DNA of 42,312 bases from an uncultured Bacteroidia bacterium (GTDB lineage: Bacteria > Bacteroidota > Bacteroidia > Bacteroidales > Prolixibacteraceae). The stretch covers positions 1-42,312 of the forward strand of contig CAIXZH010000032.1 in assembly GCA_903923905.1 (NCBI GenBank), read 5' to 3'. Position 1 is the stretch's first letter; each line of letters begins with the position of its first letter. The notes under the pieces are model-generated. The model ran no database searches, was not told the origin of the DNA, and worked only from the letters and a program-made list of their open reading frames with translations. Shown piece by piece: positions 20,501 to 36,303 of the stretch. Both the position numbers and the translations under genes were made by a program.

Positions 20501-21274
20501 TTAGATCTCCATGATCTCCTTTATTTGCTCATAATAGTTGCGCCCTGACGTAAGTTTAGTCTGGCCGGCATCGTCCATCTTAATGATGAACCGGCTGCCG
20601 AAATGTTTGTCGATCTCTTTGATTCGGCTCAAATTGATCAAAAGTGATCTGTGGATACGCAGAAACTTGTCCCCTAATTTTTCTTCCAGGCTTTTAAGCG
20701 GTAAATTGCATAGATAGGTTTTCCCCTCCTTATTATAAATGGTCACATATTTGTCTTCTGCCGAAAAGTAGAGGATATCTTCGATCCGCACAAATAGCAT
20801 ACGGTCGCCCAGTTTTACCGGAATGGAGGTGATCTCCTTTTTTGGAGTCTGCCCCAGGTAATTATCAATGATCCGGAGAAGACCCTCTTTGTCGGAGTTC
20901 ACCTTCAGGGTATCGAGCTTTTCGATCGATTTTTGGATGCGTTCTTCCTTTACTGGTTTTACGATATAGTCGATACTGTTGGTTTCGAAGGCTTTGAGGG
21001 CGAATTCGTCGAATGCGGTGCAAAATATCACAATAGGCGAATGATCTGCTTGCTGCAACACTTCAAATCCGTTGAGGCCTGGCATCTGAATGTCAAGGAA
21101 CAGTAGATCGGGTTTAAGGTGACTGATCATTTCGAGACACTCAATTCCGTTTTGAGCCTCTCCGATGAGCATTATCTTATCCGGATATTCCGACAACAAT
21201 TTTCTGAGTCGGTCACGGGCTGGCTGTTCGTCATCGGCAATCAGGGTACGGTATGTTGTGGCTAATGAATTCAT
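20501..21274 (-). CDS. LytTR-family response regulator
   Basis: An N-terminal receiver (acidic pair D14/D15 area in LIADDEQPARD, phospho-acceptor D61 in LLFLDIQMPGLNGF, switch Thr in FCTAFDEFA, Lys in YIVKPV) is joined to a C-terminal LytTR DNA-binding domain (residues about 150-257; FLRIHRSLLINLSRIKEI, SRFIIKMDDAGQTKLTSGRNYY read as its beta strands). LytTR regulators bind paired direct repeats. The partner kinase lies 114 bases upstream in the same direction, so this is a LytS/LytR-type two-component system of unknown signal. Confidence 0.95.
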   Translation of the reverse strand: MNSLATTYRTLIADDEQPARDRLRKLLSEYPDKIMLIGEAQNGIECLEMISHLKPDLLFLDIQMPGLNGFEVLQQADHSPIVIFCTAFDEFALKAFETNSIDYIVKPVKEERIQKSIEKLDTLKVNSDKEGLLRIIDNYLGQTPKKEITSIPVKLGDRMLFVRIEDILYFSAEDKYVTIYNKEGKTYLCNLPLKSLEEKLGDKFLRIHRSLLINLSRIKEIDKHFGSRFIIKMDDAGQTKLTSGRNYYEQIKEIMEI

Positions 21275-21388
21275 AGGTCTACAGGCATGTGTATTACAAA
21301 AAAGAATTTATCAAAGTAATGCGACTTGCTGCAGGTAACTGGCATCATAATGTTAGAATAAATTGCTTAAAAGTAATACCTTTTGAAT

Positions 21389-22948
21389 TTATTGTTGATT
21401 TATCTCATAATTCTCTATTGGCAAGATCAACTCAATGAACTTTTCAGGTTTGTTTTCCCAGTTAATAGCAGCCTTGGAGCCATAGAGCAATGCTATTCGT
21501 TCCTGGGTGTTCCGGATACCGAAACCCGAGAGCGGTCCTTCGGGGAAAGCCGGGCCATTATCGTAAATTCGGATACCAAGTTTTCGCTCTTCTTTAATTA
21601 TGGACACTTTGATGAATCCGTTTTCTGTGATCTGCGATAAACCATGTTTAATCGCGTTCTCGACCAATGGCTGAATCAACAGTTGCGGAATCGGGATATC
21701 TAAGAAACCTGGTTCACAGTCTATTTCAAAATTTAGCCTGTCACCGAATCTTACTTTTTCGATTTCGAGGTAGGTGCGGATGGCATTCAGTTCTTCCTGA
21801 AGTGAATTGAACTGTTTTTGCTCACGGTTGATTGCGTATTTGAAAAAGTCGGAGAGAGCCAAAGCCATCTTTTCAGTTTTTAGGGGATCCGTTGTGGCCA
21901 GGCTGGCAATTGAATTTAATGCATTGTAGAGAAAGTGAGGGTTGATCTTGGCGCGCAGCGACTGAAGTTCAGCCTGCCGGTGAAGCTCATTCATCTGCGC
22001 AAGCTCTACATCTTTTTGATTGATAACACTTTTATACCTGTCGGTTATGAAAATATAAAGGGCTCTTCCCAATGAAACCGAAAGAATATATGGCAGCATT
22101 ACATTATACCTTAAGGGAATATTGTAGATTATCCCCTCAAGAGACCATCCATAACGAACCGGAAAGGAAACAATGGCCAGCATAAGAAGAGTAATTGAGA
22201 AATTTACTGTAATCTTTGAAATACCTGCAAGTCCACTTTTAAGGAGCACTTTTGTTGAAAGAATTAATCCCAGCAAAAGAAATGCATTGTCTAATTCATT
22301 GTGATACATTTGAATCAGGTACATCCGGTAAGATGCATGCTTTACGAAGTAATTTTTAAATTGTTCCTGAAAATCGTCAGCATAAAGGGTCTTCAAAATA
22401 AAGGAGTCAAACGGGCGATCAATATTGGGATACCTGATATCGTCAGGACCCTTTTCATCAAAAACACAACCCGCTATGCCAGTTGTCCCGGATTTGCCTG
22501 GTGAAAACTGAACAAGTGATCTGTAAAGCATGTAATAAAACACCTTTTTGCGTACCTCTTTGGGGACATCGGATTGAAATTCGCAAAAATTCTGAGTTGA
22601 ATGGATGGAATAGCCACTTGCATCCATGGCCGTGATCCTTCCGTGATGGTCTCCATTTATATTAAAAATGAGATTGGCTTCGTCATTTGTAAAATGTATT
22701 TTTCTAGTAGGAATTACCGCCTTTAAATCCTGAATAAGTTCTACAATACAGGCCGAGTCGATGGCACTGCACTTGCCATCCAGCCGGACTGCAATATCAT
22801 TTCTAAAGATGATCGGTTTTTTAGTCTCACCCAGAAACTTGCCAAAAATGGAATTCCAGGCCGATCTTTGCAGGTCTTTGCCAAGTTCTTCAGCAAGGAG
22901 AGATTGTGCAAATCCAATGAGCAGCAGTAAAATTAAAAGCTTCTTCAT
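21389..22948 (-). CDS. LytS-type sensor histidine kinase with an unusual N-terminal domain
   Basis: The protein of 519 residues has a signal peptide (MKKLLILLLLIGFAQSLLA), an extracytoplasmic region of about 200 residues, roughly three or four membrane segments (FLLLGLILSTKVLL, FSITLLMLAIVSFPV, VMLPYILSVSLGRALYIF), then a His_kinase domain (PF06580 type) with the H-box INPHFLYNALNSIAS and an ATPase domain (LIQPLVENAIKHGL, GFGIRNTQERIALLYG). ATG 22948 is chosen because it opens the signal peptide; the frame runs open to 23044. The outer domain resembles DUF2927 proteins in pattern (YRSLVQF, then PFDSFILKTLYADDF), but that is weak. The LytTR regulator is downstream. Confidence 0.93.
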   Translation of the reverse strand: MKKLLILLLLIGFAQSLLAEELGKDLQRSAWNSIFGKFLGETKKPIIFRNDIAVRLDGKCSAIDSACIVELIQDLKAVIPTRKIHFTNDEANLIFNINGDHHGRITAMDASGYSIHSTQNFCEFQSDVPKEVRKKVFYYMLYRSLVQFSPGKSGTTGIAGCVFDEKGPDDIRYPNIDRPFDSFILKTLYADDFQEQFKNYFVKHASYRMYLIQMYHNELDNAFLLLGLILSTKVLLKSGLAGISKITVNFSITLLMLAIVSFPVRYGWSLEGIIYNIPLRYNVMLPYILSVSLGRALYIFITDRYKSVINQKDVELAQMNELHRQAELQSLRAKINPHFLYNALNSIASLATTDPLKTEKMALALSDFFKYAINREQKQFNSLQEELNAIRTYLEIEKVRFGDRLNFEIDCEPGFLDIPIPQLLIQPLVENAIKHGLSQITENGFIKVSIIKEERKLGIRIYDNGPAFPEGPLSGFGIRNTQERIALLYGSKAAINWENKPEKFIELILPIENYEINQQ

Positions 22949-23080
22949 TTCTTTGATTTTAAAGGTTTCAGCAAAAGAAACTTTTTGTCCACCAATGTAA
23001 AAGAAAATTGCGACAAGCTGCAGAAGCTGAGGGATAAACTGCAAAAATCATTAAAAGGGAGGAGGAGTCCTAATATCTGC

Positions 23081-27941: not shown

Positions 27942-29063
27942 TTACTTATTGTTGTAGATCTCATCATACTTCTTAATGATTGCCAAATGTTTATCGTTTA
28001 GGGCATTGGCGTGGAAGAAGGTGATTCCTTTGGCCCCGTTGTCGTGTGCCTGCCGGATTGCCTCTTCGAAGTCAGCCATATTATCGCCATAATCTCCGAC
28101 CGCCACACCGGTAAAGAGGAGCTGTCCGGGTTTCAATTCGCGCACACCCTGTTTGGTTGCGAATCCTACCCAGTACATATTTCCCTGGTGATCACCCTTA
28201 TAGGCCATAGGGAAAAAGAGATCGAGGTTCCAGTGGCTCCAGTCCTGCCGGACGTATTCGCGGGCCAGTTCGGGAAAAGGGAAGACCGCAGCAGAGGCTT
28301 TAGTCCCTTCCTCATGGCAGATCTGTACGCACTCTTCAACAAGTGAAGTTATTGCGTCCATCCGGAATTGCTTCCAGGCGGGGTTCTCCTCCTTGTCGGG
28401 AAGGTCCATCGGATCCATGCTGAATTTAGCCTTGAACTCCTTTCTCGCGAGAGGGTGGTAATCGAAGTCAAATTCAGGATATACCCGATCCTGGACAAGG
28501 GGTTTGCCGTTTAGCTTGTATTTTTTCTGTAAATCTGCACCAAGCACGACATCGACATACCGGATGTAGTCGAAATGGACCGAGGCGAGCCCTTTTATTT
28601 TGGCAATTTCCCTGACTCCGTTTTTGACATATTCGCGGGCGCCAGGGGAGAAGGGGCTCAGAAAACTGTAATAACCGACATATGGATGATAATCGAGACA
28701 AGTCTGTCCCAGGCTGTTGACCGAGTACCAATCGGGGTGTTCCCTGCACTCTTTGGCACCGCCCACATTCATCATCCAATGCCAGGCGTGAACCCTGATT
28801 CCATATTTATTCCCAATCCGGATCAACTCCTTTAACTGGTTAGCGTCGCTTCCGGGAAGTATATCGGTGATTCCCGCATTTGCAAGTCTTTCCATCCAGG
28901 CGACCTTAACAGCATCAGTTCCTGCGCCAGGATCGCCCCATGTTGCAAAATAGAATTTCTTGTCGGAATACGTTTGATCCAACGTTTTTTCCGGAGTTTT
29001 GGCAACCAGCTGCATGGTAACGAGAGTTGCGAGAAAAAGGGTAACAACTTTTCTGATCTGCAT
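27942..29063 (-). CDS. Secreted GHL10-like putative glycoside hydrolase
   Basis: After a signal peptide (MQIRKVVTLFLATLVTMQLVAK) the 373-residue protein shows a TIM-barrel pattern: the early strand segment VAWMERLANAGITDILPGS, KYGIRVHAWHWMMN, LSPFSPGAREYV, the signature SVHFDYIRYVD around D165, then DLFFPMAYKGD and GITFFHANAL. These match the YngK/DUF187-like GHL10 group (family-10-related glycosidases). The conserved FDYIRY is the usual catalytic-region motif. No carbohydrate target can be assigned. It follows a Tat-exported Gfo/Idh/MocA gene by 30 bases in the same direction, so the two likely act on the same sugar. Confidence 0.82.
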   Translation of the reverse strand: MQIRKVVTLFLATLVTMQLVAKTPEKTLDQTYSDKKFYFATWGDPGAGTDAVKVAWMERLANAGITDILPGSDANQLKELIRIGNKYGIRVHAWHWMMNVGGAKECREHPDWYSVNSLGQTCLDYHPYVGYYSFLSPFSPGAREYVKNGVREIAKIKGLASVHFDYIRYVDVVLGADLQKKYKLNGKPLVQDRVYPEFDFDYHPLARKEFKAKFSMDPMDLPDKEENPAWKQFRMDAITSLVEECVQICHEEGTKASAAVFPFPELAREYVRQDWSHWNLDLFFPMAYKGDHQGNMYWVGFATKQGVRELKPGQLLFTGVAVGDYGDNMADFEEAIRQAHDNGAKGITFFHANALNDKHLAIIKKYDEIYNNK

Positions 29064-29093: not shown

Positions 29094-30464
29094 TTAAACC
29101 AGGTGCTCTTTGTATATCGATTCCCAGGGTTCTCTCATTTTCCGGTGCAGCATACTATTGGCCACATCATTGTTTGAAAATTGTTCAGTAATTGGGTCCC
29201 AGTCGAGGTCTTGCCGCAGTTTCATCGCAATATTGCCCAAATGAGACATTGTTATCGAGCGGTGACCGATCTCCGCCGGTGCAATGGTCTCTTTGCGTGA
29301 ATAGACGCAGTCGATAAAGTTCCTGAAATGGTTTTCACTTTGATACAGGTGAATTTCGGAAGGGGAGATCACTGAATCCTTAAGACTTTCAGGGAATACC
29401 TGGTGATTTCCACGGTTCGCATGAGCCCATCCTTCACTACCATGAAAGGTAACACCGCTTTGCAACTTATTGGATATAATAAGTTTAACCCCGTTGGCAT
29501 AGAGGCATTCGAAATAATATTCGATAGCTGTATTCCAGATCGGATGAACCGCCCACTCAGCCCTGGCATTCTGAATCTTAACCGGGCCAGTGTATTCAGT
29601 ATCCATTCCCCACTGGGCGATGTCGGGGTGGTGTCCGCCCCAATCGGTTACCTGTCCTCCGGAATAGTCGAGTATCCAACGAAAGTTTACATGAGTACGG
29701 GCAGGGCAATAAGGGGCATCGGGTGCAGGTCCCAGCCAGGTATTGTAATCGAAACCTTCCGGAACCGGGATGGTTTGGGTGAGATTCCCGGTTTTGCCGT
29801 AGTCGGGGGTTCCTGATGGGAGGCCACATTCGACGGTCAGTAATTTGCCGATTCTACCGTTTCGGACCAGTTCACATACCCGCCTGAAATTTACATCCGA
29901 GCGTTGCTGACTTCCGGTCTGGAAAACTGTGCCATATTTCTTAACGGCATTTGCCATTGCCCTCCCTTCCGGAATAGTCAGTGCAAGAGGCTTTTGGCAA
30001 TAGATATCTTTTCCTGCCTTTGCAGCCATCAATACCGGGATGGAATGCCAGTGATCCGGAACGACCACTTCGACAGCATCTACGTCATTTCTGGCGATCA
30101 CCTCCCTGAAATCTTCGAAGCTCTTACAGCCTGTATATTTTTTTCCCAGGAGCTGGGAATAATATCCGTTGACCAGGTTTATACCGATTTCCCTTCCGCC
30201 AATTTTTCCGTTCCAATACCCGGTGCTTTGTTTATTGACATCACAAATGCCAGTGATCTGGACCCGTTTGTCGGTTAAGAAACAGTTGATATCATTCATC
30301 GCCTGGTTTCCTGAACCGATAAACATCAGGTTAACCCGGTCGGAGGGTGCCACATGTCCGTTTTTCCCGCGGGCGCAGGCTGAAATAATCGTTGGTACGG
30401 CAATTGCACCGGCACCGATGGCGGAGGTTAGCTTAATAAAATTCCGTCTGTTCAGTTTCGTCAT
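29094..30464 (-). CDS. Tat-exported Gfo/Idh/MocA oxidoreductase (copy 1)
   Basis: A twin-arginine signal (NRRNFIKLTSAIGAGAIA) with a lipobox-like ISAC marks export, perhaps as a lipoprotein. The Rossmann domain binds NAD(P) (LMFIGSGNQAMND). The conserved EKP motif is changed to QKP (residues 157-159, YCQKPLALT), keeping the Lys used for catalysis. The second half has YSGGQVTDWGGHHPDIAQWGMD, containing the catalytic acid/His region (DWGGHHPD). At 456 residues the length is usual for the exported branch. It is separated by 293 bases from the ThuA gene and leads the GHL10-like gene. The likely role is oxidation or reduction of a sugar or its derivative in the periplasm with a bound cofactor. Confidence 0.92.
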   Translation of the reverse strand: MTKLNRRNFIKLTSAIGAGAIAVPTIISACARGKNGHVAPSDRVNLMFIGSGNQAMNDINCFLTDKRVQITGICDVNKQSTGYWNGKIGGREIGINLVNGYYSQLLGKKYTGCKSFEDFREVIARNDVDAVEVVVPDHWHSIPVLMAAKAGKDIYCQKPLALTIPEGRAMANAVKKYGTVFQTGSQQRSDVNFRRVCELVRNGRIGKLLTVECGLPSGTPDYGKTGNLTQTIPVPEGFDYNTWLGPAPDAPYCPARTHVNFRWILDYSGGQVTDWGGHHPDIAQWGMDTEYTGPVKIQNARAEWAVHPIWNTAIEYYFECLYANGVKLIISNKLQSGVTFHGSEGWAHANRGNHQVFPESLKDSVISPSEIHLYQSENHFRNFIDCVYSRKETIAPAEIGHRSITMSHLGNIAMKLRQDLDWDPITEQFSNNDVANSMLHRKMREPWESIYKEHLV

Positions 30465-30757: not shown

Positions 30758-31975
30758 CTATTTTGCAAGTTGCAGACGAGCCAGTGTGTATTCGGCCACA
30801 TCTTTGATGTTTTCGTTTTTAACGAGTTCTTTGGTCACCGGTATACTTAACTCTGAACCCATCCAGCTGAGTTCGCGAAGCAGTAATTTTTTCCCGTCAT
30901 CTGTAGCTTCTTTACTTTCAAGTACTCTGATCATTTCTTTTTCAAATCCCTGATAATCCGCAGGAGTTTTTGCCTCGTGACGGATACGGCTTTGCAAATC
31001 GGAAAAATACCTCGTGCTTTTGGTAATATCATACTGTGCTATTTTTGACAGGTCATCTTCGAGAGTCAGTTCTTTAAAGTCTGGTCTTAATGAGGAACCG
31101 GCTGAAGTCGGGAAATCGTATGGGATTTTCTGGGTCACTTTTCCGGAAGCGGCCCATTCGGCGCCGCGCTGGAAGGTTGTAATAAAGCCAACACACTCCA
31201 TCGAAGGACCACCGTCTTCATCAGGATGGCCTAAAGTGGTATGAAAAATTCTCCCTTTTCCATAAGTGATCGCCATAAGCATTGGTTCGTCGCGACCGGT
31301 ACCGCCGCCTGTAGTGTCTGAATAAGCTGTTGCGAGGATCTCCATGTTCTTTCCTGGTCCGCGTAACTGGGCATAAAGTTCATCTTTCCCGTGGATCCAC
31401 CGTTGAGGTAACCCTTTGGTAATCGGATGTTCGGTGTTCCGGGCCCTGACTTCAAATTCGTGTCTTTTGGCATGAGAACCACCCCTTCCTGCACTTGAAT
31501 CGATGATCAGGGAATCATGTTTAAAGTAAACATAGGGTCCGTCTTTTTCAGAACGGTTTCCCCAACCTCCGAGACCGATCATCTGGTTATATTCTTTCCA
31601 CTCAGGGAAAGAGTTATCACCCGCATGGTAGACAACCACTCCACCGCCATTATTGACGTAGTTAACAAAAGCTGCCTTGGTTTTGTCGGACCATGAATCG
31701 CCGTTATAGTCGATAACGATTACATTATACTTTGAAAAATCGGGGGTAAAAATAGTCATGTCACCCCCTTTATCCGGAGATTTAGCAATATCCACGGTGA
31801 AAAGCCCGGTTTGCTCAAGCAACTGCTCAAGGATGGGGAAGCTGGATTTCCAGTAGTGGTTATTTTGACCAGTGACAATCAGCGCCTTGTATTCTGTGCT
31901 TTTCTGGCACGCATTGAAAACAGTTAATAATCCGACACAAACGAATATTAACAGATATTTTTTTTTCATTCTCAT
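30758..31975 (-). CDS. ThuA-domain lipoprotein
   Basis: A lipoprotein signal (MRMKKKYLLIFVCVGLLTVFNAC) is followed by a ThuA-type glutamine-amidotransferase-like fold: KALIVTGQNNHYWKSS, IVIDYNGDSW, VVVYHAGDNSFPEWKEYNQMIGLGG, and GRIFHTTLGHPDED. ThuA homologues in rhizobia act with the Gfo/Idh/MocA-type ThuB in trehalose use via a 3-keto sugar. The C-terminal region (about 300-405) looks like a helical repeat (KELVKNENIKDVAEYTLARLQ). The stop of the Gfo/Idh/MocA gene (copy 2) lies 6 bases upstream, so the two are surely co-transcribed. The role in keto-sugar metabolism is inferred from the partner genes. Confidence 0.88.
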   Translation of the reverse strand: MRMKKKYLLIFVCVGLLTVFNACQKSTEYKALIVTGQNNHYWKSSFPILEQLLEQTGLFTVDIAKSPDKGGDMTIFTPDFSKYNVIVIDYNGDSWSDKTKAAFVNYVNNGGGVVVYHAGDNSFPEWKEYNQMIGLGGWGNRSEKDGPYVYFKHDSLIIDSSAGRGGSHAKRHEFEVRARNTEHPITKGLPQRWIHGKDELYAQLRGPGKNMEILATAYSDTTGGGTGRDEPMLMAITYGKGRIFHTTLGHPDEDGGPSMECVGFITTFQRGAEWAASGKVTQKIPYDFPTSAGSSLRPDFKELTLEDDLSKIAQYDITKSTRYFSDLQSRIRHEAKTPADYQGFEKEMIRVLESKEATDDGKKLLLRELSWMGSELSIPVTKELVKNENIKDVAEYTLARLQLAK

Positions 31976-31981
31976 TTCAAA

Positions 31982-33295
31982 TTAAATGGTGGGTAAGCTC
32001 CAGGGTTGACGATAGGGACGACTTAATAAGCGACTTGCTACGGGATTTCCAATAATTTCCTCTTTTACAGGATCCCATTGAATCTTTTGCCCGGTTGTCA
32101 TCGCGATTTCGCCCAATAAAGCAACGGAAATGGCATGATAAGCCACCTGAACCGGTGCTATGGCCTCTTTTCGTGACCGAACGCAATCGACAAAGTTTTG
32201 CCAGTGGTTCTCACTTTTATAGATCTGAATTTCATTTGGACCAATCACCTCCTGGAGAATTTTAGGATCCGAAGCGACCAGCGTTTCTCCACGGTTTACA
32301 TGAATCCATCCTTTTTCGCCATACCAGGTTGTCCCGGATCCTTTTTGGAGATGCCCTTCATTAGCGACTCTCATCTCGATGCCATTGGCATATTTGCACA
32401 GGAAATCGTATTCGACCGGAACATTGAAGATGCCATCTCTTGGATATACCCCTTCGCCTGAAATCTCGACTGGGCCAGTTCGTTCAAGGTCGGCGCCCCA
32501 GTTGGCAATATCGATGTGGTGTCCGGCCCAGTCGGTAAGCTGCCCGCCTGAGTAATCCAGGATCCAACGCCAGTCCCAGTGACTGACACCACGGTAGGGA
32601 ACTTTGAGTGCGGGACCGAGCCACATCTCCCAGTTGAGTTCGGCAGGGATCTCTTTAACTGGCGGGGTTCCGATCCCCCTGTTTCCGTTAGGTAAACCGA
32701 CTTCAATATATTTTATTTTTCCGATTCTGCCATTTCTGACCAGTTCAACACCACGGTGAAAATTGGGTCTTGACCGTTGCCAGCTTCCTGTTTGCCAGAT
32801 AATATTGTTCTTTTCAACTGATTTTACAATGGTCTGACCATCTTTTATGGTGCGGCAAATGGGTTTTTCACCGTAGACATCCAATTTTTTGTTTGCAGCT
32901 GCACTGTAGATCAGTCCGTGCCAGTGGTCCGGTAGGGCAATCGATACGGCGTCCAATTTCTCTTTTTCAAGAAATTCACGATAGTCACCATAGACGCGGC
33001 AATCGTTGTTTTTGTTCGCCTTATCGGCTAAGCCTTTGGCATTTGCCGAATGTTTGGTATCCACATCACAAACTGCAACAAACTGTACCTGATTTTTGAG
33101 TTCCAGGAAGTCTCTCATGTTGCTGGTTCCCTGTGATCCAACACCGATGCCCCCCATTACAATCCTGTCACTGGGTGGAAGTTTTCCCCCCATGCCCATC
33201 GCAGTTGAAGGTATAATCTGCGGGAGGATCAGCGCTCCGGTTGCAACGGTAGCGGATCGTTTCAGAAAATCCCTTCGGTTAGATTTGTCAAACAT
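31982..33295 (-). CDS. Tat-exported Gfo/Idh/MocA oxidoreductase (copy 2)
   Basis: A Tat signal (SNRRDFLKRSATVATGALI) without a lipobox indicates export to the periplasm. The cofactor motif is GGIGVGSQG and the EKP motif is intact (E143-K144-P145, YGEKPICRT). The catalytic-region pattern LTDWAGHHIDIANWGAD follows in the second half. At 437 residues it is a close paralogue of copy 1 in layout. It lies 6 bases upstream of the ThuA gene and 36 bases after copy 3. The likely substrate is a sugar, but it is not known. Confidence 0.93.
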   Translation of the reverse strand: MFDKSNRRDFLKRSATVATGALILPQIIPSTAMGMGGKLPPSDRIVMGGIGVGSQGTSNMRDFLELKNQVQFVAVCDVDTKHSANAKGLADKANKNNDCRVYGDYREFLEKEKLDAVSIALPDHWHGLIYSAAANKKLDVYGEKPICRTIKDGQTIVKSVEKNNIIWQTGSWQRSRPNFHRGVELVRNGRIGKIKYIEVGLPNGNRGIGTPPVKEIPAELNWEMWLGPALKVPYRGVSHWDWRWILDYSGGQLTDWAGHHIDIANWGADLERTGPVEISGEGVYPRDGIFNVPVEYDFLCKYANGIEMRVANEGHLQKGSGTTWYGEKGWIHVNRGETLVASDPKILQEVIGPNEIQIYKSENHWQNFVDCVRSRKEAIAPVQVAYHAISVALLGEIAMTTGQKIQWDPVKEEIIGNPVASRLLSRPYRQPWSLPTI

Positions 33296-33331: not shown

Positions 33332-34681
33332 TTAAACATGTGCAGGTGTTCCGGGCAGGGGTGTATCGAATACCATATCCACCGGACCAAATTCGATTTT
33401 CCTGGGTCCAAGGTCCATATCCGATTTCATGATGGCGTCCCAGGTAATCATTTGTCCGGTGTAGGCTGCGGTACGCCCCATGATAGCAGTCAGAGTTGAG
33501 ATTGCAGTTCGTTCGGCCTCATTCACATAATTTCCTGTTCTTATGGCATGAACCAGGTGCATATGTTCCTGAACGTATGGGGAAATTTTTATTGTGTTCA
33601 TCGTATTGCCATTCTCGTCCTTGGGGTATTCAAATTTCCATTTGACACTCCCATCCAGGTTCCAGATTGTATTTATGCAATTGGTGTAACCTTCTGTTCC
33701 ATTGATCAGTTCTCCGGTTCCGTTGGCACAGCTGTCCAATTCACGGCACATGCTATGGGAACTTACTCCGTTGCCGTAATCATAGTCAATGCTGAAAAAA
33801 TCGTACTGATCACCGGTTACCCTGCGTGCACGACCCCCGTAACCGATCGCTTTTTCGGGGTGTTTCCCCATGAACCAGTTGATCACATCGATATTATGTA
33901 CGTGTGTATCAAGAATATGATCACCGCATAGCCAACAGAAGTTATTCCAGTTCCGGATCATATATTCCATATCGTTCCATCCCTCTTCGCGCATGCGGAA
34001 CCAAACATGTTCCTGGTTCCAGAATGCTTTTGCAGATACCAGTTTCCCGATAGCGCCATTGGCCACCTGTTTGTAGGTTTCGATATAATCTTCCTGGTGA
34101 CGTCGCTGGGTCCCGGTGACAACGCAAAGTCCAAGCGCTTCGGCTTTTTTTGCCGTCGCGATCATCAGACGGGCGCCGACAGGGTCCACACACACCGGTT
34201 TTTCCAAAAAACAGTGTTTCTTATTTTTGACCGCCTCCAGAAAATGTTCGGGACGAAAATGGGGGGGAGTGGCACAGATCACGACATCAATTTCGGGCAT
34301 AGCCATCAATTTCTTGTAGGCATCAAAACCAACAAAACAGTTTTCGGCGGGGATCGGGAGATTGAACGATTCAAATCTTTTCCGGCAATTATCAATTTTA
34401 TCCTGAAATACATCGGCCAGTGCAATAATCTCCAGGTCGGGACCCGCACTGATAAAATTAATCGCAGCTCCGGTTCCGCGATTTCCTGCTCCAACAAGTC
34501 CGGCTTTAAGTTTCCTTCCTCTGGGTGCACCTTTGAGAATGGGGGGAAGTCCCAAAGCCGCATTGTCTAATTTTTTGGAACATGACGAGAGGATCGCACT
34601 CGCACTGGCAACACCGATTCCTGCCAGGACACCCGCCCCCAGGAATTTCCGTCTGTTGATATTTTTTGAATTGTTTTCCAT
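33332..34681 (-). CDS. Tat-exported Gfo/Idh/MocA oxidoreductase (copy 3)
   Basis: A Tat signal (INRRKFLGAGVLAGIGVASA) ends in a lipobox-like ILSSC, so the protein is probably an exported lipoprotein. The nucleotide motif is GLVGAGNRGTGA, the EKP motif is intact (FLEKPVC), and the catalytic-region segment DTHVHNIDVINWF differs from copies 1 and 2, so it belongs to another branch of the family. The start is ambiguous because several ATG codons cluster at 34681-34708 in an A-rich stretch; ATG 34681 is used here. The cytochrome fusion gene ends 3 bases before 34708 (30 before 34681), so the genes form one operon. Confidence 0.92.
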   Translation of the reverse strand: MENNSKNINRRKFLGAGVLAGIGVASASAILSSCSKKLDNAALGLPPILKGAPRGRKLKAGLVGAGNRGTGAAINFISAGPDLEIIALADVFQDKIDNCRKRFESFNLPIPAENCFVGFDAYKKLMAMPEIDVVICATPPHFRPEHFLEAVKNKKHCFLEKPVCVDPVGARLMIATAKKAEALGLCVVTGTQRRHQEDYIETYKQVANGAIGKLVSAKAFWNQEHVWFRMREEGWNDMEYMIRNWNNFCWLCGDHILDTHVHNIDVINWFMGKHPEKAIGYGGRARRVTGDQYDFFSIDYDYGNGVSSHSMCRELDSCANGTGELINGTEGYTNCINTIWNLDGSVKWKFEYPKDENGNTMNTIKISPYVQEHMHLVHAIRTGNYVNEAERTAISTLTAIMGRTAAYTGQMITWDAIMKSDMDLGPRKIEFGPVDMVFDTPLPGTPAHV

Positions 34682-34711
34682 ATTATTTTTCATTTTTTCA
34701 TTCTTCATTTT

Positions 34712-36247
34712 TCATTTTATGCTGTCAGCCTCGCAGACAACCCTGAACCCGTTGTCGATGCAGTCGGAATACCACCAGATACTCTTGGGCATCTGGGGGT
34801 CGGTTACGAGCCAAGCCTGTGTTTTAGTGAAATCTCTGGCAGCACTTCTCACATCTTTGGCATCACTTTTAAACGATCCACCCCTGATTACATGTTCGGT
34901 TCCCGATTCGGGACCTTTGGGATTAACCACGAATGGTACTCCGGTTTTGTAGGCATCGGGCGAGTAAAAGTCGGAACAGAACTCGGCGATGTTTCCGGCC
35001 ATATTTTTCAACCCGAACGGATTTGCTTTTACCGAGCCGGGATCCTGGGTCTTGGAAGCGCTGTTTACCAGGTACACAATGTGCGAGCTGATAATCGTTG
35101 TATCGGGTCCAAAGATTTTCTTAAAGATCCCTTTTGAGGTGAATTTCTTCGGGTCACCTTCAAAGAAATAAGGAGTAGTCGTATTTCCGCGGCAGGCATA
35201 TTCCCACTCGGCTTCGGTTGGGAGGCGATACTTTTTACCGGTGACTTTGGAGAGCCACTCGCAATAGGTATTTGCAGCACGCCAGGACATGGTAATCGCT
35301 GGTCTTGAACCTTTTCCCCATCCCTGATCGGGAGCTCCCCATGGAGGGGTAGGACCTGTTACGGCATCCACATTCTTATTTACAATTATCTGTCCTTCAG
35401 TTCTTCCCTGTGAAGCAGTTGCCTGGAAGAACGCGAGATATTCGTTCCAGGAGACTTCAATTTTGCCCATCCAGAATTTCGAAACCTTGACTTTATGAAC
35501 CGGACCTTCATCCAGTTTACGCAGTGGCTCATTATCCGGACTTCCCATATTAAATATTCCCTCTGGAATTGCCACCATGTCGAAGGCAACCGTGGTCCCG
35601 GGAATTTTTTCGGTGAAACTTTCAAATTTATCAACCTTGGTCGCACTTGTAAATTTTTCCTGGCTCAGGGCAGCGTCAACTCCGAAATTGGTATCGTGTT
35701 CGTGCTTGACATTTTTGTCGAAATGCCCGACGTTCAAGTGACAGTTGATACAATTAGGCTTGGGATCTTCTTTTACGTTGATATAGGCCAGGTGGGCATT
35801 GCTCCCGTTTACCGATAAAGTTACGGGGAACAGATTGGAATGACATTTAATACACGATTTTTCGTAGGTAAAACCTTTTGCATTGTCAAGTAACTTCTTT
35901 GATTCCCAGTTTAATTTGGAACTATCCTTAAACAGATAGCCATATACATCGATTGCGCCATGTTTGGCTTTGGCGAGCAGGTATCCTTCACCCTTTGGAG
36001 GGAGGTGACACTCAACGCAATGGACAGATACGCCGGTTCTGTTATTGTGGTGAGGGCCGAGTTTCCAGGTCTGTTCTGCCCATGGATGAATATGGCACGA
36101 CATGCAATAACTGTCAGAGGATGTGGTTGTTGATACTGTATTAAAGATGCCGATAACGACCAGGCACAGGAGTGCCCCGAAGGTCATTATCCAAATCCGG
36201 GCCTTTGATCCGTTGATCACCCGAAGAACAAAATTCTTAATATTCAT
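34712..36247 (-). CDS. NapC/NrfH-type tetraheme cytochrome c fused to an FGE-like (SUMF1) domain
   Basis: One reading frame of 511 residues joins two modules. Residues 18-38 form a membrane anchor (IWIMTFGALLCLVVIGIF). Four CxxCH heme-binding motifs follow: C48-H52, C77-H81, C132-H136 and C166-H170, with the NapC/NrfH-style spacing and neighbouring sequence (CMSCH..GPHHNNRTG..CVECHLPP). Residues 221-508 are a formylglycine-generating-enzyme-like fold (VAIPEGIFNMGSPDNE, RPAITMSWRAANTYCEWL, RLPTEAEWEYACRG, GLKNMAGNIAEFCSD, VIRGGSFKSDAKD, NGFRVVC). The paired catalytic cysteines of true FGE, expected after GGSF, are absent. It should sit in the inner membrane with both modules outside. It heads an operon of exported sugar oxidoreductases. 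Confidence 0.93.
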   Translation of the reverse strand: MNIKNFVLRVINGSKARIWIMTFGALLCLVVIGIFNTVSTTTSSDSYCMSCHIHPWAEQTWKLGPHHNNRTGVSVHCVECHLPPKGEGYLLAKAKHGAIDVYGYLFKDSSKLNWESKKLLDNAKGFTYEKSCIKCHSNLFPVTLSVNGSNAHLAYINVKEDPKPNCINCHLNVGHFDKNVKHEHDTNFGVDAALSQEKFTSATKVDKFESFTEKIPGTTVAFDMVAIPEGIFNMGSPDNEPLRKLDEGPVHKVKVSKFWMGKIEVSWNEYLAFFQATASQGRTEGQIIVNKNVDAVTGPTPPWGAPDQGWGKGSRPAITMSWRAANTYCEWLSKVTGKKYRLPTEAEWEYACRGNTTTPYFFEGDPKKFTSKGIFKKIFGPDTTIISSHIVYLVNSASKTQDPGSVKANPFGLKNMAGNIAEFCSDFYSPDAYKTGVPFVVNPKGPESGTEHVIRGGSFKSDAKDVRSAARDFTKTQAWLVTDPQMPKSIWWYSDCIDNGFRVVCEADSIK

Positions 36248-36270: not shown

Positions 36271-36303
36271 AACACAACAGCTGTTGTGCTGTTCTGTTGT
36301 GTT
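36271..36303 (-). promoter_or_regulatory. Palindrome and inverted repeat in the leader of the cytochrome operon
   Basis: CACAACAG|CTGTTGTG (36273-36288) is a perfect 16-base palindrome. In addition AACACAACAG (36271-36280) matches, in reverse complement, CTGTTGTGTT (36294-36303) exactly. The pair lies 24 bases before the ATG at 36247, so it could be an operator or an RNA hairpin that affects translation or early termination. Confidence 0.5.

Follow-up and report, generated by a model that had tools for sequence, protein, structure and literature searches.

NrfH and NapC oxidise quinol, and the NrfH/NapC-NirT cytochromes (PF03264), with the solved NrfH 2j7a, are the nearest described counterparts of the tetraheme protein reported here. 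Among the enzymes of sugar oxidation, LacABC presumably has a cytochrome as one of its subunits and a dehydrogenase of the GMC type. According to one report, LacABC is the membrane-bound enzyme used in the known periplasmic 3-oxidation, where it oxidises lactose (PMC9007349). DgpA and its relatives are Gfo/Idh/MocA glycoside 3-oxidoreductases; DgpA is reported to use bound NAD for oxidising glycosides at C3 and to regenerate it with 3-oxo-glucose, a second sugar, in a ping-pong reaction without a cytochrome (PMC11239390). As for covalent flavins, ApbE attaches FMN to [S/T]GA[S/T]-like motifs, and the main texts of two ApbE surveys mention neither SUMF1, nor FGE, nor Gfo proteins (PMC8238504, PMC11334425).

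We analysed a 42,312-nt stretch of DNA from an uncultured Prolixibacteraceae bacterium (contig CAIXZH010000032.1), referred to in its whole length as the window. One minus-strand frame (34712..36247), read from 36247 to 34712 with 511 codons and a stop, encodes an NrfH/NapC-like tetraheme cytochrome c fused to a SUMF1/FGE-like domain, while the plus strand is closed across the same positions. The tetraheme part (residues 17–176; 35720..36199, minus strand) matched PF03264 Cytochrom_NNT (E 2.2e-24), starts with a membrane helix at about residues 18–38 and carries CxxCH motifs starting at residues 48, 77, 132 and 166. The SUMF1/FGE-like part covers residues 206–511 (34715..35632, minus strand), with PF03781 FGE-sulfatase matched at 223–473 (E 3.4e-42). 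Beyond these two, Pfam gave only a weak Cytochrome_C7 match and no second catalytic domain in the window fusion. The AlphaFold model showed a helix at 14–42, coinciding with the membrane helix. ORF, Pfam and AlphaFold agree with what an earlier note on this DNA had read from its letters, a single frame of 511 residues that runs from a membrane helix through four CxxCH motifs to an FGE-like domain.

PF03264 and PF03781 are the two domains that the note had proposed to search for, and 47 further fusions were found. All 47 were examined; they are about 49–85% identical, have the same architecture and include one pair more than 95% identical to each other (loci L113 and L114). As these relatives share the architecture and all four CxxCH motifs are invariant in 48/48 fusions, chance or a frame error is excluded, and the NrfH-SUMF1 fusion is a real, conserved family. 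The possibility raised earlier that homologues always occur as two separate genes found no support, since the 295 genomes of the window's order yielded no close relative of the tetraheme half on its own, and the 47 relatives are all built alike. The half-length tetraheme matches, in the genomes G154 and G233, extend to the ends of their contigs.

A collection with one genome per species (84,980 species) was scanned and the best 80 loci were kept; among these were 15 NrfH-SUMF1 fusions and 65 SUMF1 matches without NrfH. Fourteen of the 15 fusions bear Bacteroidota titles and one comes from a candidate division KSB1 metagenome-assembled genome, which could be a case of mis-binning. The titles of the 65 others name Bacteroidota, Planctomycetes, Verrucomicrobia, Acidobacteria and others. 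In the window's order, 46 of the 295 genomes matched at E ≤ 1e-30 and 39 were of the fusion type when the rows were read by eye, including G154, whose match is cut at a contig end. Among 395 genomes of the phylum, 36 matched at E ≤ 1e-40, 33 of them with SUMF1 only; the fusions were those of the window genome, of G105 from the same order and of G637 from another class. No paper on an NrfH-SUMF1 fusion or on a flavinylated SUMF1 was found in searches of the open-licence literature.

The fusion gene heads a minus-strand run of genes. Three nucleotides past its stop codon starts GfoA (33332..34708), a Gfo/Idh/MocA dehydrogenase with a Tat and lipobox-like signal, followed after 36 nt by GfoB (31982..33295), a Gfo/Idh/MocA protein with a Tat signal whose nearest NCBIfam model is the BT_2158 glycoside 3-dehydrogenase (152 bits, under the cut-off of 750). 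Then come a ThuA-like protein (PF06283 by Pfam; 30758..31975) after 6 nt, a third Gfo/Idh/MocA protein, GfoC (29094..30464), after 293 nt, and a GHL10-type glycosyl-hydrolase-like protein (by Pfam; 27942..29063) after 30 nt. Upstream of the fusion lies polA, and between the two a terminator-like hairpin (36271..36290, minus strand) was detected, as a consensus match only. Elsewhere in the window (20501–23044, minus strand), adjoining response regulator and histidine-kinase-like genes were noticed by eye and are unrelated.

The suggestion that the same gene may stand next to Gfo/Idh/MocA genes in other genomes was borne out. GfoA was found downstream and on the same strand in 40/46 fusion loci with room (at least 700 nt downstream), with 3–238 nt between match ends. 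Among the six remaining loci, a GfoB-like gene takes the place of GfoA in four (L019, L072, L104 and L115); in the other two, L113 and L114, a GfoA relative lies in convergent orientation. The window genome contains a second fusion, 55% identical, which has its own GfoA. SUMF1 genes without NrfH were followed by GfoA within 1.8 kb in 68/89 loci with room (21/89 without it), and a gene of about 1 kb or longer lies between SUMF1 and GfoA in L025, L031, L044 and L062. Distant SUMF1 controls from the window genome and others of the order had GfoA, GfoB or GfoC in 0/13 loci, with flanks of about 1.5–3 kb and with two of them (L171 and L174) cut downstream by the contig end.

The GfoA of the window has a Rossmann domain (PF01408, E 7.2e-15 by Pfam), one of 46 PF01408 matches in its genome, not all of which are exported. 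A quick tree built from 153 Gfo proteins placed the fusion-linked GfoA together on one side of a branch with support 83; the 105 SUMF1-linked GfoA needed 4 label changes on this tree versus a mean of 41 in shuffles. Counted with loose regular expressions, a twin-Arg pattern was present in 40/40 full-length fusion-linked GfoA and 57/64 other GfoA, a lipobox-like pattern in 33/40 and 51/64, respectively, and, as in Gfo/Idh/MocA proteins, EKP in 40/40 and DH..H in 39/40 of the fusion-linked ones. We regard the pairing of the SUMF1 fusion with one exported dehydrogenase as firm, and the fusion is likely to be the electron conduit of GfoA.

Other genes recur near the pair. A xylose-isomerase-like TIM barrel (PF01261), often with a Tat-like start, stands beside it in Bacteroidales and Flavobacteriia, in 11/42 long fusion loci and 18/53 SUMF1-alone loci (examples are L184:3296-4225, L186:8718-9632, L183:7200-8123 and L031:9911-10816). 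The 53 SUMF1-alone loci also include five with a PSD1-type gene, as detected with PSD1 queries that carry PSCyt1, and seven with a DUF1501-type gene. PSCyt1-PSCyt2-PSD1 and DUF1501 genes occur near SUMF1 at L031:5206-8940 and L027:2962-7311 and may share an electron path with it.

GfoA is related to DgpA and its kin, as its nearest solved relatives include the DgpA-type 7xr9 (E 8.1e-9). Genes for 3-keto-disaccharide hydrolases were found near some relatives (Pfam matches in L044, L185 and L186), though in only 4/42 long fusion loci, which speaks against the reading. Because GfoB is nearest to the BT_2158 type, a ThuA-like gene belongs to the run and 3-keto-disaccharide hydrolases stand near relatives, oxidation at glycoside C3 is our leading guess for the substrate reaction. 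The LacABC dehydrogenase is of the GMC type, whereas the partner in the window is a Gfo/Idh/MocA protein with SUMF1 and is not a GMC enzyme. What the two would share under our model is periplasmic sugar oxidation by a membrane-bound enzyme, as reported for LacABC (PMC9007349). Another contig of the window genome (C33, L153:2874-6187) carries three consecutive genes, for a protein with a Tat signal and a GMC-like oxidoreductase, both recognised by eye, and for a nine-CxxCH cytochrome with multiheme Pfam matches; together they resemble a sugar dehydrogenase of the LacABC type, as a counterpart of the Gfo system. On contig C47 of the same genome (L152:3740-11047), there is a cluster of genes with 6, 1, 7, 1, 1 and 6 CxxCH motifs and a membrane protein of cytochrome-b-like appearance.

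Like the NapC/NirT/NrfH proteins, the tetraheme part combines the PF03264 match with an N-terminal membrane helix and four CxxCH motifs. In the alignment with NrfH 2j7a, its K93 (in 47/48 fusions) and D100 (in 48/48) fall opposite a Lys and an Asp that presumably play a role at the quinone site. H54, H66, H152 and H175 are invariant in 48/48 fusions as well, and H54 occupies the position of the Met in NrfH 2j7a, whose first motif reads CHIM, whereas the fusions read CxxCHxH in 48/48. Given the invariant CxxCH motifs and these four histidines, four hemes with four candidate distal ligands are kept. The protein scored 63.3 bits with the NrfH equivalog model TIGR03153 (NCBIfam), under its cut-off of 134.2, and differs from NrfH by its C-terminal SUMF1 domain and by the lack of an NrfA-type partner beside the gene; the genome has only a weak PF02335 match (E 4.3e-5), on another contig. 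A nitrite-reductase role was dropped, as no standard NrfA is present.

In our preferred reading the hemes would pass electrons to the quinone pool. The tetraheme part may instead oxidise quinol, with GfoA reducing, for instance, keto-sugars in the periplasm; this is the direction established for NrfH and NapC, the two residues that match the NrfH Lys and Asp are kept, and the anatomy leaves the direction of electron flow unfixed. Against it, electron transfer from sugar to menaquinone is downhill, and the periplasmic LacABC oxidises lactose (PMC9007349), so that we consider the reverse direction unlikely.

The SUMF1 part belongs to the common fold family of FGE/SUMF1 (PF03781), with a C-terminal signature of its own subfamily (WxxxDPQxPKSxWW). 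At 51 positions conservation is 90% or higher in both classes, with and without NrfH, and none of these is His or Cys; C329 is kept in 47/48 fusions. A branch with support 100 separated the NrfH fusions from all other members in a quick SUMF1 tree (143 rows), which indicates that NrfH joined this subfamily with a single origin. Members of this subfamily in PVC bacteria are joined to a different heme domain, PSCyt1, confirmed by Pfam in 9/10 proteins scanned (the tenth, L022, is without it), while L036, L060 and L061 were counted as PSCyt1 by two CxxCH motifs. The 12 PSCyt1 fusions require four changes on the tree, gains or losses, two of them forced by strong branches. That a single SUMF1 subfamily has been joined to two heme domains unrelated to each other suggests that c hemes are its working partners. 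In five PSCyt1 loci without GfoA downstream (L035, L036, L046, L060 and L063), the neighbours included nothing dehydrogenase-like when their first 90 residues were read by eye. For freshwater Verrucomicrobia with many PSCyt genes, a link to carbohydrates has been suggested (PMC5615132). On the whole, the SUMF1 part resembles a module for docking the exported dehydrogenase next to it more than it does an oxidase, and it is possibly a covalent-flavin carrier for GfoA.

NADH donates a hydride and a heme accepts one electron, so a flavin between NADH and heme is chemically expected. A candidate site is the loop DAVTGPT (residues 294–300; 35348..35368, minus strand), an ApbE-like motif in which Thr300 is the proposed FMN site. 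Residues 294–302 of the window read DAVTGPTPP, with TGPT in place of [S/T]GA[S/T]. D294 is present in 139/140 and Ser/Thr300 in 140/140 subfamily members. Positions 297–300 fit [ST]G[AP][ST] in 46/48 fusions, with Pro often replacing Ala; the strict [ST]GA[ST] occurs in 10/48 fusions, 0/12 PSCyt1 and 8/80 SUMF1-alone proteins, the rest having mostly [ST][RK]P[ST]. The ApbE-like motif was not seen in 15 control SUMF1 sequences, and FGE 6s07 reads DAVVPEA at the loop position. Within GfoA, D.{1,3}[ST]G[AP][ST] matched 0/105 proteins and any [ST]GA[ST] 5/105. AlphaFold gave the Thr300 loop low confidence (block means 46, 55 and 73 for residues 281–310), which is compatible with an exposed site and proves nothing.

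A possible likeness to known ApbE-flavinylated proteins (FMN_bind, DUF2271, DUF3570) lies in the [S/T]GA[S/T]-like loop with its conserved Ser/Thr and in an ApbE neighbour in related loci. With Pfam-confirmed queries, ApbE was found adjoining SUMF1 or one to two genes off in 19/53 SUMF1-alone and 6/12 PSCyt1-SUMF1 long loci (25/65 together), and near SUMF1 in 3/27 loci with 1.5-kb flanks, in both orientations and on both sides. It was present in 0/13 control SUMF1 loci, which have shorter flanks, and in 1/42 NrfH-type loci, as a weak match (57 bits) 8.6 kb away. All 28 ApbE-adjacent loci are without Gly298 and none has SGAT, and the nine non-NrfH loci with Gly298 have no ApbE beside SUMF1. GfoA is downstream in none of the six PSCyt1 loci that have ApbE (L061 has no room; in L055 and L076 it is upstream), and ApbE thus seems to be associated with SUMF1 as such.

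The window genome (97.8% complete) has one ApbE (E 3.6e-80) and no match to the known substrate domains FMN_bind, DUF2271 or DUF3570; its two fusions are thus candidate substrates. Over the 295 genomes of the order, ApbE was present in 38/39 fusion genomes versus 230/256 others (p 0.23, not significant), the sets being compiled from match listings with unlisted genomes assigned by complement. In the 28 genomes without FMN_bind, fusions were found in 4/16 with ApbE versus 0/12 without (p 0.11); the other 12 of these 16 genomes may have other ApbE substrates. Covalent FMN is favoured by the ApbE neighbourhood and the invariant residue, and disfavoured by the motif deviations and by the lack of an ApbE neighbour in NrfH-type loci. 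Covalent FMN on the SUMF1 fold, proposed as probable, is the boldest part of the model.

It is conceivable that the SUMF1 part is a flavin-free scaffold, with GfoA recycling its NAD with a second sugar in the ping-pong manner described for DgpA (PMC11239390), and with the hemes serving another partner or holding the complex at the membrane. The FGE fold is structural in GldK/PorK, the top NCBIfam model for the SUMF1 part (112 bits, well under its cut-off of 350; PvdO followed with 104, cut-off 500), and the strict flavinylation motif is missing in the window. Such a scaffold fits poorly with hemes that are invariant in 48/48 fusions, with a second heme domain on the same SUMF1 subfamily and with ApbE beside SUMF1 in more than a third of the long non-NrfH loci, and we find it quite improbable.

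The earlier note had read the fusion as tethering an oxidase-like or substrate-binding domain to a membrane electron path. An FGE-fold domain is indeed tied to such a path, but its reading as a metal-dependent oxidase of the FGE/EgtB type found no support. The window reads GGSFKS where the solved FGE 6s07 has GGSFLC, and Cys occurs at 461 or 466, which we take to be the FGE copper positions, in 0/48 fusions; in the other subfamily members (n=92), Cys is found at 466 in 9 and at 461 in none, hence at both in 0/92. The DinB-like iron-binding domain of EgtB is absent from the window fusion by Pfam. FGE- or EgtB-type catalysis was set low on these two grounds. That SUMF1 is a catalytic oxidase of the FGE/PvdO/EgtB kind fed by quinol, with GfoA merely in the same pathway, is very improbable, for although PvdO and FGE are among the nearest families, the 48 fusions lack both FGE cysteines, no His or Cys reaches 90% conservation across the subfamily, and the record of one relative is named ADurb, presumably for an anaerobic digester, an odd place for an O2-dependent enzyme.

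We return to the view that the fusion conducts electrons at the membrane for an exported dehydrogenase of sugars or glycosides that contains NAD, with SUMF1 docking GfoA and FMN on Thr300, a reading to which we give slightly better than an even chance. GfoA, exported by Tat with its cofactor bound, would oxidise an alcohol group of a sugar and would be docked by the SUMF1 domain. An ApbE encoded elsewhere in the genome would probably have attached covalent FMN to Thr300, and this FMN would accept the hydride from the captive NADH of GfoA and hand single electrons to the four hemes, which would reduce the quinone pool. AlphaFold models of read-through chains gave no confident arrangement for the fusion with GfoA (74 rows, 20 paired; pTM 0.50) or for SUMF1 with GfoA (20 rows; pTM 0.58), which counts for little in either direction, as paired rows were few and the models contained neither hemes nor cofactors. 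The 50 rows shown by Foldseek for the first model were, by title, nearly all sugar/inositol-type or unnamed oxidoreductases, and are thus informative on GfoA only.

More broadly, the SUMF1 subfamily may be a new class of covalent flavoproteins, in which FMN attached by ApbE to Thr/Ser300 bridges the captive NADH of exported Gfo/Idh/MocA proteins to c hemes, those of NrfH in Bacteroidales and of PSCyt1 in Verrucomicrobia and Planctomycetes, and would thereby equip both Bacteroidota and the PVC group with respiratory sugar dehydrogenases; this wider proposal is tentative, and we rate it somewhat below even. Many Gfo/Idh/MocA dehydrogenases are exported by these bacteria and their captive NADH needs re-oxidation outside the cytoplasm, which in the case of DgpA is done by a second sugar. 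If our reading is true, periplasmic sugar oxidation would become respiratory through a cytochrome conduit of its own, proteins annotated as formylglycine-generating enzymes yet devoid of the FGE cysteines would gain a role, and the ApbE of the window genome, where the three known substrate domains were not found, would have a candidate substrate. The fusion and GfoA probably let these bacteria pass electrons from extracytoplasmic sugars to respiration.
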